This document shows, one piece after another, positions 8,131 to 60,053 of a stretch of 64,000 nucleotides of DNA. Made by a program: the position numbers and the translations under genes. Origin of the DNA: Lachnospiraceae bacterium V9D3004 (GTDB taxonomy: Bacteria > Bacillota > Clostridia > Lachnospirales > Lachnospiraceae). The stretch spans positions 96,706-160,705 of the forward strand of contig KK211381.1 in NCBI GenBank assembly GCA_000621985.1, given 5' to 3'. The notes beneath the pieces are model-generated. The model searched no databases and was not told the origin of the DNA. It saw only the letters and a list, made by a program, of their open reading frames with translations. Each line of letters starts with the position of its first letter. Positions within the stretch are counted from its first letter, which is position 1.

Positions 8131-9189
8131 TTGTCTTCAGATATTATTACAATGGTTCACGGAAGTGGAGGAAGTGCTACTTCAGAACTTATAGAGAGTA
8201 TATTTGAGAAGAATTTTGATAATGATACGTTGTCTGAGATGGAAGACAGTGCTGTGGTTGAAGGGGCACCGAGATTTGCCGTGACGACCGACAGCTTTGT
8301 TGTAAAACCGCTGTTTTTTCAGGGTGGTGATATTGGCAGGCTAAGTATATGCGGAACAGTAAATGATCTGCTTATGAGAGGAGCTGTTCCAAAATACATC
8401 ACGTGCGGTATGATACTGGAGGAGGGTGCCTCGATTGACAATTTGCGCCGTATCACGGAATCGATGGCTGAGACTGCAAAAGAAGCAGGGGTTGAGATAG
8501 TTGCCGGTGACACCAAGGTGATCGAAGGAAATGGTGGAATAATAATTAATACCGCAGGAGTAGGATTTGTCGATGAGAAGCTTGATATTGCTTCAGGAAA
8601 TGCACGACCCGGTGATAAGATTATCGTATCAGGCAATATCGGAGAACATCATGCTGCAATACTTGCATCAAGATTGGGAATTGAAACGGATATAAAGAGT
8701 GACTGCGCGCCACTCGTGAAGATTGTGCACAATTTAATAGCACACCGGATAAGAATACACGTCTTAAGAGATGTTACAAGAGGAGGACTTGCCACTGTAT
8801 TAAAAGAAATAGCCGGAGCATGCGGTAATAATTTCATGATAAAAGAAGAGTTGCTGCCGGTCACATCAATGGTTAAAGAATTCTGCGGACTGTTAGGACT
8901 GGATCCGTTGTATATGGGTAACGAAGGAAAACTGGTCGCAATTGTTCATCCTGAAGATGAAGAAGCTGCTCTTGATATAATCAGACATTCAACGTACGGA
9001 CAGGATGCCGTATGCATAGGAGAAGTTGTGTCGGGTGGTGACAGTGCGTCAGGCAATGATCGTACTTCAGGTAATGACTGTACTTCAAGTAAGGATCACA
9101 CTTCAGGCAGCGTAATACTTGAAACATTAATAGGCGGCAGAAGAGAACTCGACGTTTTACAGGGCGAAGGCCTACCTAGGATATGTTAA
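8131..9189 (+). CDS. hypE: Hydrogenase maturation protein HypE (carbamoyl dehydratase)
   Basis: HypE dehydrates the carbamoylated C-terminal cysteine to thiocyanate and donates CN to the HypC-HypD iron. The protein starts MSSDIITMVHGSGG and ends GLPRIC, with the catalytic terminal Cys in place. I chose the TTG at 8131 because GCAGGAGG ends about 10 nt before it and family members start close to HGSGG; this gives 352 aa. The frame stays open upstream to a TTG at 8071. An 18-bp tandem repeat inserts SGNDRT-like units before the last strand (VILETLIGGRRELD). An 8-T run precedes the gene. No hypA, hypB or endopeptidase gene is adjacent. Confidence 0.9.
   Translation: MSSDIITMVHGSGGSATSELIESIFEKNFDNDTLSEMEDSAVVEGAPRFAVTTDSFVVKPLFFQGGDIGRLSICGTVNDLLMRGAVPKYITCGMILEEGASIDNLRRITESMAETAKEAGVEIVAGDTKVIEGNGGIIINTAGVGFVDEKLDIASGNARPGDKIIVSGNIGEHHAAILASRLGIETDIKSDCAPLVKIVHNLIAHRIRIHVLRDVTRGGLATVLKEIAGACGNNFMIKEELLPVTSMVKEFCGLLGLDPLYMGNEGKLVAIVHPEDEEAALDIIRHSTYGQDAVCIGEVVSGGDSASGNDRTSGNDCTSSKDHTSGSVILETLIGGRRELDVLQGEGLPRIC
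9031..9111 (+). repeat. 18-bp tandem repeat inside hypE
   Basis: Four 18-nt in-frame units (9031, 9049, 9067, 9085) and a half unit encode SGGDSA, SGNDRT, SGNDCT, SSKDHT and SGS. They lie between the conserved CIGEVV segment and the last strand of HypE. Units 2 and 3 differ at three positions, so the array looks younger than the one after echF. Confidence 0.85.
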
Positions 9190-54614: not shown

Positions 54615-56690
54615 ATGTTGTCAAAGAATTCAAAACGTTCTATCGGTATGGCTCTTACAGCTTCGCTTATTGCAGGGGTGGCTGTTCTTGGCTACAGGGC
54701 TGTTAAAGCAAAGAAATCGGCTGTAAGCAAAACAAACATAAGCCTGAAAGTAGGTAAGAGTAAAAGGGTATCTATTAAGAACAATAAGAGGAATTGCACA
54801 TATACTTTCAGGAGTAACAGACCCGGTGTTGCAATAGTTAACAGGAACGGTAAGATAACCGCACTAAAAAAAGGTGTTGCAAAGATCACTGTGTATGAGA
54901 TCAAAAATGGAAGAAAGAAGATTGTTGGCGTGATCAAAGTCACGGTTAATCCTATTGTGATCAAAGCATCTGATGATCCGGATGCAGATGTTTCTGATGA
55001 GGACGATCCGGATTCCGACACTTCGGATTCTCTTGCTTCGGTTGTCAGCGTTAATGATTTGAAGTCACATGTTTGCAGGATGATAGAACCGGCGATAGAA
55101 CCGGCATTCGGTTCGTACCGGTTTGATGGTTTTACGTTAAATGGCAGTTGCGTGATCCCTATGAACGGGCTGATGAAATACGGCGGAAAGTGTGAAGTCA
55201 GATTCAGGGCCGGACAGAGTTCGGGAAGCGACAAGGATATTTCCATTGGTTATTCCGGCAGCAAATACAGTAAGGGATTCGATAAGAATGGAGAGCGGTT
55301 TGTAGGACAGTCTGATACGATAACCGTAAGATCCGGTGAATCATTGGAATACAGTACCACACTTACTGTAGATAAGTATATGCTTGACTGTGTAATTAAT
55401 CTTTCGGCAGATGCCGGTACGGATATAGAGATATCTGATATCAATGTTACGACATATCCGTTTGACGGCGGTGATTATCAGACAATGATCGATGATTCAC
55501 TTATCAGCGTAGGTAACAATTCAAGACTTAAGAAGGTTATTAACAAAGCGCTTGCAGGTGAACATGTAACATTAGCATATCTTGGAGGATCCATTACGGA
55601 AGGCTGCGCAGCTACGGATGTGTCTGTGAATTCCGACTGTTATGCTGAAACTTCATATAAAGAATTCAGGCAAAAGTATGGTGCGGGCGATGGAAGCAAT
55701 GTTCATTTCATTAATGCGGGAATGAGCGGAACACCTTCATCATTAGGTGTTATAAGATTCCGGAATGATGTGCTTAATGAGATGGAATACGGTAAGTTCC
55801 CGGATGTTTTGTTCATAGAATTCGTTGTAAATGACCATGAGGAATGTACTCAGGGTGAAGGCATCGAGAGTCTCATCAGAATGGGACTTGAGCAGGGATG
55901 CGCTGTGTTCCTTGTTTTTTCACATACAGTTAATTTTGATACACATAAGCAGGAATATTATATTCATCTTGGTGAAAAATACGATCTACCTATGGTTAGC
56001 GTTAAGAATATGATGAAACCGCTTCTTGATCCGAATAATACGAGAGGTTGTGATGTGTCTGAGTGGTTTTTCTGGAATGACAGACTTCATCCGGATGTTA
56101 CAGGGCACAGATTCATGGCGGATATGATCATGAATGTATTTGACAAAGCTTATGAGGAGGAAGAAGATCCCGACTCTGTTATACTTGAAGAGACAGATCC
56201 TGTATACGGAGATTCATTTACAGGAATGACACTTATAGATTCAGATGTTGATATAGAAAAGATTGATGCTATTGAGTGGCTTTCTGTCGGAAGCTTTGGT
56301 GACAAAGACAGTAGCCAGAACATATTCCAATATAAGAAAGGCGGCAAGGAAGGAGTTGAGTGGTTTCCCAACTGCTGGATGCATCAGAAAGGCTTTGAGA
56401 GCTTCAGAGCGTCTGTCAAATGCAGCAATATGATGATCGCTTACAAACTTGCCAATGATCAGAATTTTGGAAAGGCTGAACTTTATGTTGACGGTATCCT
56501 GAAAGAGACAATGGATGGATATAGAAGCGATGGCTGGAATAACGCAACAGTGAGTGTTGTTTTTAAAGACAAAGATATTGCTTCGCATGAATTTGAGATC
56601 AGGATGACTGCCGGAAATGAGGACAAGAAGTTTACGATATATGCTATCGGTTATACCAATAGGGATGAATATAAGAGATCAATGGAATAA
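54615..56690 (+). CDS. Secreted SGNH-type esterase with Big_2 domain
   Basis: A 691-residue protein. N-terminal hydrophobic helix (about 11-30), then a Lys/Arg-rich Big_2 domain (about 38-115) and an acidic spacer (DDPDADVSDEDDPDSD). A beta-sandwich lies at about 150-285. The SGNH hydrolase domain (about 305-515) has nucleophile Ser326 (LGGSITEG), an Asn block (FVVNDHEE) and the Asp489-x-x-His492 dyad (DRLHPDVTGH). A C-terminal sandwich of about 130 residues ends the protein. Co-transcription with a GH10 xylanase points to acetylxylan or similar carbohydrate ester cleavage. CE family assignment is not possible by eye. AAAGGAG precedes the ATG. Confidence 0.82.
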   Translation: MLSKNSKRSIGMALTASLIAGVAVLGYRAVKAKKSAVSKTNISLKVGKSKRVSIKNNKRNCTYTFRSNRPGVAIVNRNGKITALKKGVAKITVYEIKNGRKKIVGVIKVTVNPIVIKASDDPDADVSDEDDPDSDTSDSLASVVSVNDLKSHVCRMIEPAIEPAFGSYRFDGFTLNGSCVIPMNGLMKYGGKCEVRFRAGQSSGSDKDISIGYSGSKYSKGFDKNGERFVGQSDTITVRSGESLEYSTTLTVDKYMLDCVINLSADAGTDIEISDINVTTYPFDGGDYQTMIDDSLISVGNNSRLKKVINKALAGEHVTLAYLGGSITEGCAATDVSVNSDCYAETSYKEFRQKYGAGDGSNVHFINAGMSGTPSSLGVIRFRNDVLNEMEYGKFPDVLFIEFVVNDHEECTQGEGIESLIRMGLEQGCAVFLVFSHTVNFDTHKQEYYIHLGEKYDLPMVSVKNMMKPLLDPNNTRGCDVSEWFFWNDRLHPDVTGHRFMADMIMNVFDKAYEEEEDPDSVILEETDPVYGDSFTGMTLIDSDVDIEKIDAIEWLSVGSFGDKDSSQNIFQYKKGGKEGVEWFPNCWMHQKGFESFRASVKCSNMMIAYKLANDQNFGKAELYVDGILKETMDGYRSDGWNNATVSVVFKDKDIASHEFEIRMTAGNEDKKFTIYAIGYTNRDEYKRSME

Positions 56691-56711
56691 TTGTAACTAA
56701 TGATAACTAAT

Positions 56712-56745
56712 ACAGCACCGGTTATATACATATAACCGGTGCTGT
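56712..56745 (+). terminator. Hairpin after the esterase gene
   Basis: ACAGCACCGGTTAT and ATAACCGGTGCTGT are perfect 14-bp arms with a 6-nt loop, 22 nt after the stop. The following TCATAAAA is not T-rich, so it could also be a processing stem. Confidence 0.65.
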
Positions 56746-56840
56746 TCATAAAACAAGAGTGTTATAAACAGCATATCATATGATTAAAGTCATCTGGTAT
56801 TGCATGATAAAGAAAAAAATATAAAGGGAGGTATGGACTT

Positions 56841-57614
56841 ATGGCAGATTATGCAGCAGGAACAGGAAAACAGTATCATATTCAATGTGGTGAAGGAGAT
56901 GTGGGAAGATATGTTATTCTTACCGGAGATCCGGGAAGAGTCAGTAAGATAGCAGAGAATCTTGAGAATGCAGTCCCGGTGGCATCTAACAGGGAGTATG
57001 TTACTTATACAGGCACGCTTAATGGGGAGAGAGTAAGTGTGACATCAACCGGAATAGGTGGTCCTTCTGCTTCGATTGCATTGGAAGAACTGGTAAAATG
57101 CGGGGCGGATACATTCATAAGAGTCGGAACGTGTGGTGGAATTGAACTTGATGTAATGGGCGGAGACGTTGTTATCGCAAATGCAGCTGTAAGGATGGAA
57201 GGAACAACAAAGGAATATGCACCTATTGAATATCCTGCAGTAGCTGATTTTAATGTTGTAAGTGCTCTGGCTGAGTCGGCAGCCAAACTCGGATACAGAC
57301 ACCACATAGGAGTATGCCAGAGTAAAGATTCTTTCTATGGTCAGCATAATCCTGAATTGATGCCGGTATATTATGAACTTGAAAATAAATGGGAGGCATG
57401 GAAGAGGATGGGATGCCTTGCATCCGAGATGGAGAACGCCGCATTATTTATTGCCGGAAGTTTTCTTCGTGTAAGAGTGGGTTCGGTTCTGCTTGCACTT
57501 GCAAATCAGGAGAGAGAAAAGCTTAACATGGAAAACAAACAATTCCATGACACAACAAGAGTTATTGAAACTGCTGTTGAAGCGATCAGAATACTGATTG
57601 AACATGATAAATAG
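56841..57614 (+). CDS. udp: Uridine phosphorylase
   Basis: A 257-residue nucleoside phosphorylase. Phosphate-binding GDPGRV (about residues 30-35), [23 protein letters not shown] and the MENA motif (SEMENAALF) that contacts ribose are all present. The overall pattern follows uridine phosphorylase rather than purine phosphorylases ([11 protein letters not shown]). It converts uridine and phosphate to uracil and ribose-1-phosphate. With cdd downstream it forms a cytidine-to-uracil salvage path. AAAGGGAGG precedes the ATG. Confidence 0.9.
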
Positions 57615-57785
57615 TTTTCATATAAATGTTTGGTGCTCCGCTTTATGTGCTCAGAAACAAAGAACCGGAGCAGAAGATGAGAATGATAATATTTGAATAT
57701 AATGTTTAAACAGGATATAACAAATAACCACTTGCGGGAATGCGAGAATCAAATGAGCCGAAAGTATGCAGTCTGAGAACATAAA

Positions 57786-57864
57786 GGTTGCACACAACCA
57801 ATAATTAAATTGCGCACAATCAAAATAAATATTGCGTGCAATCAATAATTGAATTGTGTACAAT
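57786..57864. promoter_or_regulatory. Array of four palindromic operator-like sites, 22-bp spacing
   Basis: Sites: GTTGCACACAAC (57787-57798), ATTGCGCACAAT (57809-57820), ATTGCGTGCAAT (57831-57842), ATTGTGTACAAT (57853-57864). Their centres are exactly 22 bp apart, with A/T-rich spacers (CAATAATTA-like). Consensus RTTGYRYRCAAY. The last site ends 5 bp before the -35 box of cdd. The remainder of the 346-bp udp-cdd gap shows no gene. Confidence 0.8.
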
Positions 57865-57869
57865 TTAAT

Positions 57870-57899
57870 TTGAATCACATACATCATGCGGCATATAGT
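57870..57899 (+). promoter_or_regulatory. Candidate promoter of cdd
   Basis: TTGAAT (57870-57875), 18 bp, TATAGT (57894-57899), directly downstream of the operator array and 61 bp before the cdd ATG. Confidence 0.55.
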
Positions 57900-57960
57900 T
57901 ATATCTTGAATTAATATTATTTGCAGAGGTAATATTATGCATTTAAAAGGGGGGCGCGAT

Positions 57961-58383
57961 ATGTCCGAAGAATTATTGACAGAAAAAGAACGTACATTAT
58001 TGATCAAAGAGGCATTTGAGGCGAGAGAGCGATCATATTCTCCATATTCCGGTTATAAGGTTGGAGCCGCGCTTCTTTGTGCGGACGGAACCATATTCAA
58101 GGGCTGCAATATTGAAAATGCTTCTTATCCTGCCGGCATTTGTGCTGAGAGAACTGCAATATTTTGCGCTGTAGCGTCAGGAAAAAGGGAATTTAAAGCC
58201 ATTGCGATAGCCGGCGGACATAAAGACGGAACTCCTGATATGTGTTACCCTTGCGGTATATGCCGCCAGGTAATGTCCGAGTTCTGTGCTCCGGATGGTT
58301 TTAAAATAATAGCGGCAACGGATACGGAACATTTTGAGATATATTCACTTGGTGAACTTCTGCCCAAATCTTTTGAACTTTGA
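57961..58383 (+). CDS. cdd: Cytidine deaminase
   Basis: A 140-residue homotetrameric-type cytidine deaminase. SPYSGYKVGAALL, the catalytic NIENASYPAGICAERTA (zinc Cys and Glu) and PCGICRQVM (two zinc Cys) are intact. It deaminates cytidine and deoxycytidine to uridine forms. The ATG at 57961 follows AAAGGGGGG by 6 nt; an in-frame ATG at 57937 lies before that box. The operator array upstream suggests specific transcriptional control. Confidence 0.95.
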   Translation: MSEELLTEKERTLLIKEAFEARERSYSPYSGYKVGAALLCADGTIFKGCNIENASYPAGICAERTAIFCAVASGKREFKAIAIAGGHKDGTPDMCYPCGICRQVMSEFCAPDGFKIIAATDTEHFEIYSLGELLPKSFEL

Positions 58384-58402
58384 TGTACCTTGCTAAATCA
58401 TT

Positions 58403-58502
58403 GGTTTTTATTCACGGTTTCCCACGCCTTTAAGTCATAGCCTGTCTGCTTCGTACCTGTTGCTGATTGACCGCTTGTGGCGCTGGGGCGTGGGGAGGTT
58501 CC
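58403..58502. repeat. Intergenic palindromic repeat after cdd
   Basis: TTATTCACGGTTTCCCACGCC at the left and GGCGTGGGGAGGTTCC at the right form an inverted pair (CCCACGCC/GGCGTGGG) over about 75 bp. Reverse-complemented, its right end GGAACC-n-CCCCAC aligns with 9289-9302. It probably belongs to the same family as 9198-9367. It may also end the cdd transcript. Confidence 0.55.
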
Positions 58503-58511
58503 AAAAATTAG

Positions 58512-58540
58512 TTGATTTATAACTATCTTTAGTATATAAT
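58512..58540 (+). promoter_or_regulatory. Promoter of the bactofilin-pyrH operon
   Basis: TTGATT (58512-58517), 17 bp, TATAAT (58535-58540), 40 bp before the bactofilin ATG. Confidence 0.75.
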
Positions 58541-58580
58541 TATTACATTGTGTGATCAAATATTAAGGAGGATACATATA

Positions 58581-59336
58581 ATGGGTTTTTTTAAGGATGT
58601 TGATGATTCATCAAATGAGGATCTGCTTGCAGAACTTGATTCAAAAATGGAGGCAATTGACAGTGATGAGCTGGATGTAGATGCTCAGATGGCGGATAGT
58701 CTTGCATCAGTTGATGATATAGATGCCGGAACGGAAGATGCAGATCTGCTTTCTGCTATTGAATCTGTTGGAGAAGAGGAGGCTGCTTCAGATACGGTTG
58801 AAGTTGCTCCTGAAGAACCGGCTGTTGTTGATAATAGATCTTTAGATGAACCGGTTTTGGCAGATACTCAGGAAAGCGGTTCTGACAGTAATATGGAAGT
58901 TACCGTTATTACCAAAGGAACAACAATTAAGGGCGGTATTTCCTCCGACTGCTCACTTGAAGTCATGGGTGTTATCACCGGTGATGTTGAATGTCAGGGT
59001 AAATTATCCGTATTCGGTTCGGTTAGCGGTAATGCGATCGCATCAGAGATATTTGTTAAGACTCCGGTTAAACTTGAAGGCGATCTTAACAGTACAGGAA
59101 GCGTTAAGATATCCGAAGATTCGGTTGTTGTCGGAAAGATAGTTGCTGTATCAGCTTATATTGCAGGTGCGATCAAAGGAGATATAGAAGTTCTTGGTTC
59201 TGTAGTTATTGACTCTACTGCAGTAGTTGTTGGTAATATCACTGCAAAGACTCTTCAGTTCAACAACGGTGCTATTGTTGAAGGTATATGTACTGTTGGT
59301 GAGATTCCTGCTGATATATCAAGCAAGTTTGAATAA
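58581..59336 (+). CDS. Bactofilin-family polymer-forming protein
   Basis: A 251-residue protein. Residues 1-110 are acidic and probably disordered (Asp/Glu/Ser/Ala-rich). Residues about 115-245 form the bactofilin (DUF583) beta-helix with regular short strands: TVITKGTTIKGGISSD, GVITGDVECQGKLSVFG, GDLNSTGSVKISE, GAIKGDIEVLGSVVID. Bactofilins self-assemble into filaments that organise cell envelope processes. ATG at 58581 follows AAGGAGG; the frame opens 11 codons earlier with a poor start. The long acidic N-terminus is unusual, since most bactofilins have a short tail. It lies 12 nt before pyrH. Confidence 0.88.
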   Translation: MGFFKDVDDSSNEDLLAELDSKMEAIDSDELDVDAQMADSLASVDDIDAGTEDADLLSAIESVGEEEAASDTVEVAPEEPAVVDNRSLDEPVLADTQESGSDSNMEVTVITKGTTIKGGISSDCSLEVMGVITGDVECQGKLSVFGSVSGNAIASEIFVKTPVKLEGDLNSTGSVKISEDSVVVGKIVAVSAYIAGAIKGDIEVLGSVVIDSTAVVVGNITAKTLQFNNGAIVEGICTVGEIPADISSKFE

Positions 59337-59348
59337 TAGGAGCATATA

Positions 59349-60053
59349 ATGGCTGAATATAAGAGAATTCTTTTAAAATTAAGCGGCGAAGCACTGGCCG
59401 GTGATGCGAAGAAAGGTTTTGATGAAAAAACATGCCTTGAAGTTGCCGGACAGATATCAAAGCTTTGCGATAAAGGTACCGAGATTGCCGTAGTTATCGG
59501 CGGAGGTAATTTCTGGCGCGGAAGAACCAGCGAGAATATTGACAGAACAAAAGCAGATCAGATAGGAATGCTCGCAACGGTTATGAATTGCATATATATG
59601 TCTGAGATATGCAGATCCATAGGGATTAAGACCGAGATAATGACTCCGTTTGAATGCAGTTCGTTCACTACCGTTTTCTCAAAAGATAAGGTTATGGATG
59701 CATTTGCATCCGGAAAAGTTGTATTCTTCGCGGGTGGAACGGGTCATCCTTACTTTTCTACTGATACGGCGACCGTTCTTCGTGCGGTTGAGATAGAAGC
59801 TGATATTATTCTTGCAGCTAAAGCTATCGACGGCGTGTACAGCGCTGATCCGAAGATCGATCCCTCGGCCGTAAAGTACGACAAGCTCAGTTTTGCTGAT
59901 GTTGTTGATAAGAAGCTCGGTGTGATCGATCTTGCAGCTTCGGTTCTTTGCCTTGAGAATAATATGCCTATGCTGATATTCGGGCTGAATGAAGAAGAAT
60001 CCATTGTAAGAGCTGCCGGCGGCAGTTCTGTGGGAACAATAATTACAGTATAA
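59349..60053 (+). CDS. pyrH: Uridylate kinase
   Basis: A 234-residue UMP kinase of the amino-acid kinase fold: KRILLKLSGEALAG, VVIGGGNFWRG, FAGGTGHPYFSTDT, AAKAIDGVYSADP. It makes UDP from UMP with ATP. TAGGAGC precedes the ATG. pyrH-frr-uppS-cdsA-dxr-rseP is a conserved series; the usual rpsB-tsf genes ahead of it are replaced here by the bactofilin gene. Confidence 0.97.
   Translation: MAEYKRILLKLSGEALAGDAKKGFDEKTCLEVAGQISKLCDKGTEIAVVIGGGNFWRGRTSENIDRTKADQIGMLATVMNCIYMSEICRSIGIKTEIMTPFECSSFTTVFSKDKVMDAFASGKVVFFAGGTGHPYFSTDTATVLRAVEIEADIILAAKAIDGVYSADPKIDPSAVKYDKLSFADVVDKKLGVIDLAASVLCLENNMPMLIFGLNEEESIVRAAGGSSVGTIITV

Follow-up and report, generated by a model that had tools for sequence, protein, structure and literature searches.

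A Four-Fold Palindromic Array Upstream of a Cytidine Deaminase Gene in a Lachnospiraceae Bacterium as a Candidate Operator of an OhrR-Type Regulator

The udp-cdd Locus and Its Palindromic Array

The stretch of DNA analyzed here (64 kb, hereafter the window) carries four RTTGYRYRCAAY palindromes between the genes for uridine phosphorylase (udp) and cytidine deaminase (cdd), with bactofilin and pyrH genes also in the neighborhood (Table 1). The start-to-start distances are 22, 22, and 22 bp, and both the positions and the exact spacing given for these palindromes in the initial annotation were confirmed, as was the placement of the last one 5 bp ahead of a -35 box; the promoter match itself is weak, and matches of equal quality number eight in 1.2 kb against 4.5 expected. 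The ATG at 57961 is the likelier start of cdd, judging by the purine-rich AAAAGGGGGG just ahead of it. None of the four array sites covers a -10 box, no RTTGYRYRCAAY site lies upstream of udp, and no structured RNA of an Rfam family reaches its gathering score in 56500-59500. A dispersed element was considered and rejected, 57615-57936 being single-copy in the genome.

Table 1. Coordinates of the genes, array sites, and promoter-related features (window positions unless stated otherwise).
Feature	Position	Strand	Details
udp, uridine phosphorylase	56841..57614	+	TIGR01718, 312.7 bits (curated cut-off 280.3)
Array site 1, GTTGCACACAAC	57787..57798	.	7.0 bits with the redox-site matrix; weakest of the four
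Array site 2, ATTGCGCACAAT	57809..57820	.	18.1 bits with the redox-site matrix
Array site 3, ATTGCGTGCAAT	57831..57842	.	15.6 bits with the redox-site matrix
Array site 4, ATTGTGTACAAT	57853..57864	.	19.2 bits with the redox-site matrix
OhrR-box-like stretch, TACAATTTAATTTGA	57859..57873	+	2 mismatches at 14 fixed positions of TACAATTNAATTGTA
Predicted promoter, TTGAAT-18-TATAGT	57870..57899	+	-35 box 57870-57875, -10 box 57894-57899, 18-bp spacer; 9/12 consensus positions, weak
cdd, cytidine deaminase	57961..58383	+	TIGR01354, 145.4 bits (cut-off 113.65); longest frame from 57937
OhrR-type MarR gene	G000:C3, about 64.9 kb (L043: probable ATG 4923, stop 5372)		Same contig, ~90 kb from the array

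The internal structure of the array bears on its origin. Units 1-2 and units 3-4 are 77% alike over 43 nt, so the array probably grew by duplication, and spacers 1 and 3 are identical at 9/10 bases; the regularity of the array may in part be owed to such an event. Taken to its limit, this reasoning would make the array a functionless, decaying 22-bp tandem repeat derived from a duplicated 44-bp stretch, akin to similar palindromic tandem repeats found in unrelated genomes. We consider this unlikely, as the outer bases covary (G...C in site 1, A...T in sites 2-4), a joint change which suggests that palindromy was kept while the repeat unit diverged, and as the array adjoins a predicted promoter and its fourth site equals a promoter-borne site of the same genome, described below. 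The DNA helix makes one turn per 10.5 bp; the proposal that all sites face the same side of the DNA thus holds only roughly, with a 22-bp spacing that drifts by ~34 degrees per step across the four sites. The strand of the array region folds better than its shuffles (z -3.3), a type of folding that palindromes force. Separately, a 15-nt inverted repeat (57641-57655 and 57772-57786, 93% complementary) has a right arm that stops exactly where the array starts.

Whether such an array could arise by chance, a question raised with its first description, can be answered in the negative. Under a chance model built from the first-order base statistics of the 64-kb window, 17 single RTTGYRYRCAAY sites are expected per genome and 25 are present in the 3.42-Mb assembly (10 for the reversed control pattern), and single sites with one mismatch number 10 in the window against 8.9 expected and are thus not rare; four sites at one fixed period, by comparison, are expected about 2e-15 times per genome. 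No 22-bp RTTGYRYRCAAY pair occurs outside the array anywhere in the 3.42-Mb assembly at 0 to 3 mismatches, the control likewise giving 0. The 25 sites comprise the four of the array, one at window position 8722, and 20 elsewhere, which by mechanical ORF calls are distributed as 17 within ORFs, one alone between ORFs (L045), and two in a cluster.

A Shared Site at an OhrR-Type Regulator Gene

Those two clustered sites, the only clustered RTTGYRYRCAAY copies besides the array, are separated by 24 bp and belong to the promoter region of a MarR gene of the OhrR type (Table 1). The first has exactly the sequence of array site 4, and the second, located inside the longest frame and upstream of the probable ATG, has that sequence in reverse complement; array sites 1, 2, and 3 differ from the promoter site that is identical to site 4. 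Because this operator sequence is shared, and because no other clustered copy was found in the genome, the OhrR-type protein is the best candidate for a regulator acting at the array.

The encoded protein matches Bacillus subtilis OhrR (PDB 1z91/1z9c) at 1.2e-39 and scores 53.3 bits with the Pfam MarR model (cut-off 24.6) and 181.4 bits with the NCBIfam OhrR model, under its cut-off of 200. The cysteine of its NQLCF motif aligns with the serine of NQLSF in the deposited 1z91 and with KQLCF in 3hrm; the 1z91 serine presumably occupies the position of the sensor cysteine, replaced in the crystal. The role of Cys15 is treated in the literature (PMC10458429). Judged by these alignments, the protein is a MarR winged-helix protein that matches OhrR closely and retains the N-terminal sensor cysteine.

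An OhrR box, TACAATTNAATTGTA, is given for B. subtilis and Agrobacterium in a published account (PMC6034001), and the array region contains a stretch resembling it. This stretch, TACAATTTAATTTGA, overlaps both site 4 and the weak predicted -35 box, and none of 200 single-base shuffles of 57760-57940 contained as good a match; further matches to the left have 3 and 4 mismatches (57844 and 57800, respectively), with none better in the region. For comparison, matches with 1 mismatch at the 14 positions occur in three glutathione peroxidase (gpx) promoters of relatives (G020, G031, and G039). Array site 2 is itself the reverse complement of the site that precedes the glutathione peroxidase gene in G031.

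The Same Palindrome at Redox Genes of Relatives

OhrR homologue loci were collected (30 in all), with the 16 strongest used, that of the present genome among them, and 14 weaker ones set apart. Within roughly 1.1 kb ahead of the genes at these 16 loci, ATTGNNNNCAAT occurs 14 times at 10/16 loci, a count that includes a site ~0.8 kb before ohrR at L065, where the segment taken was placed ~0.65 kb too far upstream; 200 shuffles of these regions gave a mean of 0.86 and a maximum of 5. The 14 weaker loci yielded one ATTGNNNNCAAT site in total. A second OhrR-type gene of the present genome, downstream of a gpx gene, has no ATTGNNNNCAAT site upstream, and its addition brings the count to 10/17 loci. 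Three pairs of OhrR-type sites show 24-bp spacing.

The recurrent unit ATTGYRYRCAAT was then listed, with all surroundings read, in G016, G020, G031, and G039, each of which has a close OhrR homologue, and in G298, giving 42 sites across the five genomes (control 17). The first four genomes contain 34 of these sites, 13 of them intergenic, and 10/13 stand ahead of ohrR or of genes for glutathione peroxidase, thioredoxin, or a thioredoxin-reductase-like protein, the families being checked for seven proteins concerned or adjoining and otherwise assigned by OhrR homology or by reading. Without the four ohrR-locus sites that had guided the search, 6/9 intergenic sites remain at redox genes. The three intergenic sites at other genes precede an unclassified ORF (L206), an aldolase-like gene assigned by reading (L211), and an FCD-GntR gene (L213); those at L211 and L213 have a TATA centre, a feature that, falling outside the redox set, seems to go with a different regulator. 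The intergenic ATTGYRYRCAAT sites of G298 are not at redox genes. By eye, 8/14 redox-promoter sites straddle the -10 box of a TTGACA-17-TACAAT promoter, the position expected of a repressor. In relatives, the palindrome seen in the array is a marker of peroxide and thioredoxin genes.

Two side observations accompany this listing. At L191:1995-2094 (G020), two redox-type sites lie 88 bp (4 x 22) apart ahead of a thioredoxin-reductase-like gene, which is itself preceded by a NUDIX gene. In addition, ATTGTATACAAT coincides with, or shortly precedes, the start of one kind of gene (aldolase-like, assigned by reading) in two genomes (L211:1565 and L215:1560) and ahead of an FCD-GntR gene (L213:1589), and may be a candidate GntR operator.

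A matrix of 13 redox sites, all taken from other genomes, with five looser OhrR-locus sites left out, ranks array sites 4, 2, and 3 second, third, and fourth in the window. The top score belongs to the site at 8722, within a gene-like stretch, so matrix score alone proves nothing; site 1 is matched or beaten by 21 other window positions.

Another reading assigns the array to a GntR regulator of the FCD type or to one of the LacI type. TTGTATACAA-type sites do lie near FCD-GntR genes in other bacteria (L100, L129, and L213), and a 22-bp ATTGTGCGCAAT / ATTGCGCACAAT pair precedes a LacI-type gene in G298. Either protein is nonetheless quite unlikely as the binder, since the TATA centre of the GntR-linked sites is absent from the array, and since 0/5 GntR-type and 0/2 LacI-type genes found in the present genome are preceded by RTTGYRYRCAAY. 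In one GntR gene of this genome (L143), ATTGTTCACAAT falls just within the frame.

Conservation at cdd and Arrays in Other Genomes

Relatives of cdd were found in 48/61 genomes (own included), and 30 cdd loci (own and 29 others) were compared over 500 bp upstream of each. The conservation at cdd orthologues for which the initial annotation had called was not found: the array is absent from 29/29 other loci, and a RTTGNNNNCAAY site occurs in 0/29 of these 500-bp regions. Looser TTGNNNNCAA sites, outside arrays, are present at two cdd loci (L023 and L029). Even G020, where cdd (61%) and the OhrR-type gene (61%) each have a close homologue, has a cdd without a site upstream. Among nine congeners, the best OhrR match has an E value of 1.6e-6, none being close, and the closest cdd has 56% identity; given congeners without a close OhrR homologue or a closer cdd, this lineage may have gained both genes recently and on its own.

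The 22-bp pair is similarly confined. Only the present genome has it among 61 relatives, and within 397 family genomes it appears in four including this one (3/396 others; 1 for the reversed control pattern). None of the pairs in the three other family genomes is at cdd: besides the G298 pair mentioned above, one lies ahead of the gene gap (G375) and one in a terminator-like stretch (G354), both assigned by sequence reading.

A wider search for three-unit arrays across 84,980 genomes returned 51 stretches of mixed character, including many simple tandem repeats, some operators (promoter-borne GntR sites), and some in-gene repeats. Together with 6 further loci these made 57 stretches with arrays or pairs, drawn from other genomes and from viruses, or 55 distinct places (L056 equals L099, and L057 lies within L142), in which tblastn detected no relatives of cdd, udp, OhrR, gpx, or trxA, while positive controls were found. 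As these stretches are mixed and contain no cdd or OhrR relative, motif shape alone does not identify a system, whereas gene context does.

Several of these arrays merit description in their own right. In Prevotella-labelled records (L092/L108, L104, L122, and L135), RTTGYRYRCAAY-like palindromes, many of them spaced by 24 bp, form long arrays immediately ahead of two genes, one encoding a ParA-like ATPase and the other small and lacking any Pfam match (families tested for L135 only); each such array is a possible centromere or operator. A gene with a DnaB_2 (replication initiation) domain contains 21-bp palindromic repeats at L131:192-243, which are translated as a repeated peptide and may constitute a replication origin within the gene. 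A Phocaeicola genome has TTTGTGCACAAA-type arrays with 23-bp spacing at nine of the places retrieved (L095, L105, L107, L109, L121, L123, L127, L136, and L139).

The ParA-associated and DnaB_2-associated arrays offer a parallel for an iteron function, in which the array would belong to a replication or partition origin. Such a function is highly improbable here, in agreement with the initial annotation, which had ranked it as the less likely alternative: the array is single-copy and flanked by metabolic genes, no replication or partition gene adjoins it, and its 22-bp pair occurs nowhere else in the assembly. No plasmid record matches 57600-58400, and viral contigs contain no cdd relative, with the exact three-unit pattern in 2 contigs only.

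Interpretation and Outlook

With a probability of roughly 0.4, the array serves a peroxide sensor of the OhrR type as a cooperative operator, with repression likelier than activation. The dimeric, winged-helix protein encoded at L043, of the OhrR kind of MarR regulators that sense organic peroxides, would most likely be the binder; its reduced dimers, side by side on the four palindromes, would keep the cdd promoter low, with the last dimer extending into the -35 box, and oxidation of the sensor cysteine would then release the dimers and raise cdd expression. Four features of the array argue against this proposal, namely the poor first site, the C at position 5 (in 3/4 sites), the spacing of 22 rather than 24 bp, and the lack of coverage of the -10 box.

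A somewhat less likely alternative is a dimeric regulator of another kind, which might be an activator of pyrimidine salvage specific to this lineage that touches RNA polymerase from upstream. It is suggested by the spacing and the position-5 C, both unlike OhrR-type pairs, by the lack of an array at other cdd genes, and by the location of all sites upstream of the predicted -35 box; that udp and cdd adjoin the array would also suit such a protein. It would have to be reconciled, however, with a 22-bp pair at no other gene of the assembly, with a udp gene that lacks a site, with 0/29 other cdd loci, and with clustered sites that, among regulator genes, were found at the OhrR-type one alone (for the looser TTGYRYRCAA, among the matches listed, 50/65).

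These considerations modify the picture drawn at the outset, in which a cooperative regulator of pyrimidine salvage, probably an activator, was proposed. The array does look like an operator for a dimeric, probably cooperative protein. A dedicated pyrimidine-salvage role was not supported, in view of the siteless udp, the 0/29 cdd loci, and the absence of cdd and udp relatives from the 57 stretches; the lack of conservation at cdd orthologues speaks against a regulator of salvage in general, and a lineage-specific one may exist. As for activation, the sites do lie upstream of the -35 box, but the OhrR-box-like stretch at 57859-57873 runs into that box.

More doubtful still is the further step by which an OhrR-type sensor was rewired in one lineage to pyrimidine salvage through a four-fold phased operator. 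If so, the benefit might perhaps lie in clearing oxidized cytosine nucleosides or in adjusting nucleotide supply under oxidative stress, and peroxide sensing would be linked to nucleoside salvage. The array would also offer a natural four-site graded series for measuring cooperative binding of MarR-family dimers. ATTGYRYRCAAT is useful in its own right as a sequence-searchable marker of a peroxide and thioredoxin gene set in the family and order of the window. No published description of this gene set was found, a weak negative given that subscription journals lie mostly outside the search; the array 12-mers appear in the literature in part as primers, the remaining hits being judged by title, with no link to cdd found.

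Comparison with Known Systems

DeoR, CytR, and PyrR control nucleoside genes, including pyrimidine nucleoside genes; we take the motif and geometry of the array not to fit any of the three. Among redox regulators, AsrR of Enterococcus faecium is OhrR/OspR/MgrA-like, and the accessible part of its description neither mentions a four-site array nor spells out the binding sequence (PMC3410868). A likeness also exists to the OhrR box of B. subtilis and Agrobacterium, which is likewise an AT-rich inverted repeat targeted by a dimeric peroxide sensor of the MarR family. The present system differs from it in that the recurrent unit, ATTGYRYRCAAT, has its arms in the reverse order, as though formed where two boxes meet, in that four copies follow one another at 22 bp, and in that the gene downstream encodes cytidine deaminase and not a peroxide defence protein.
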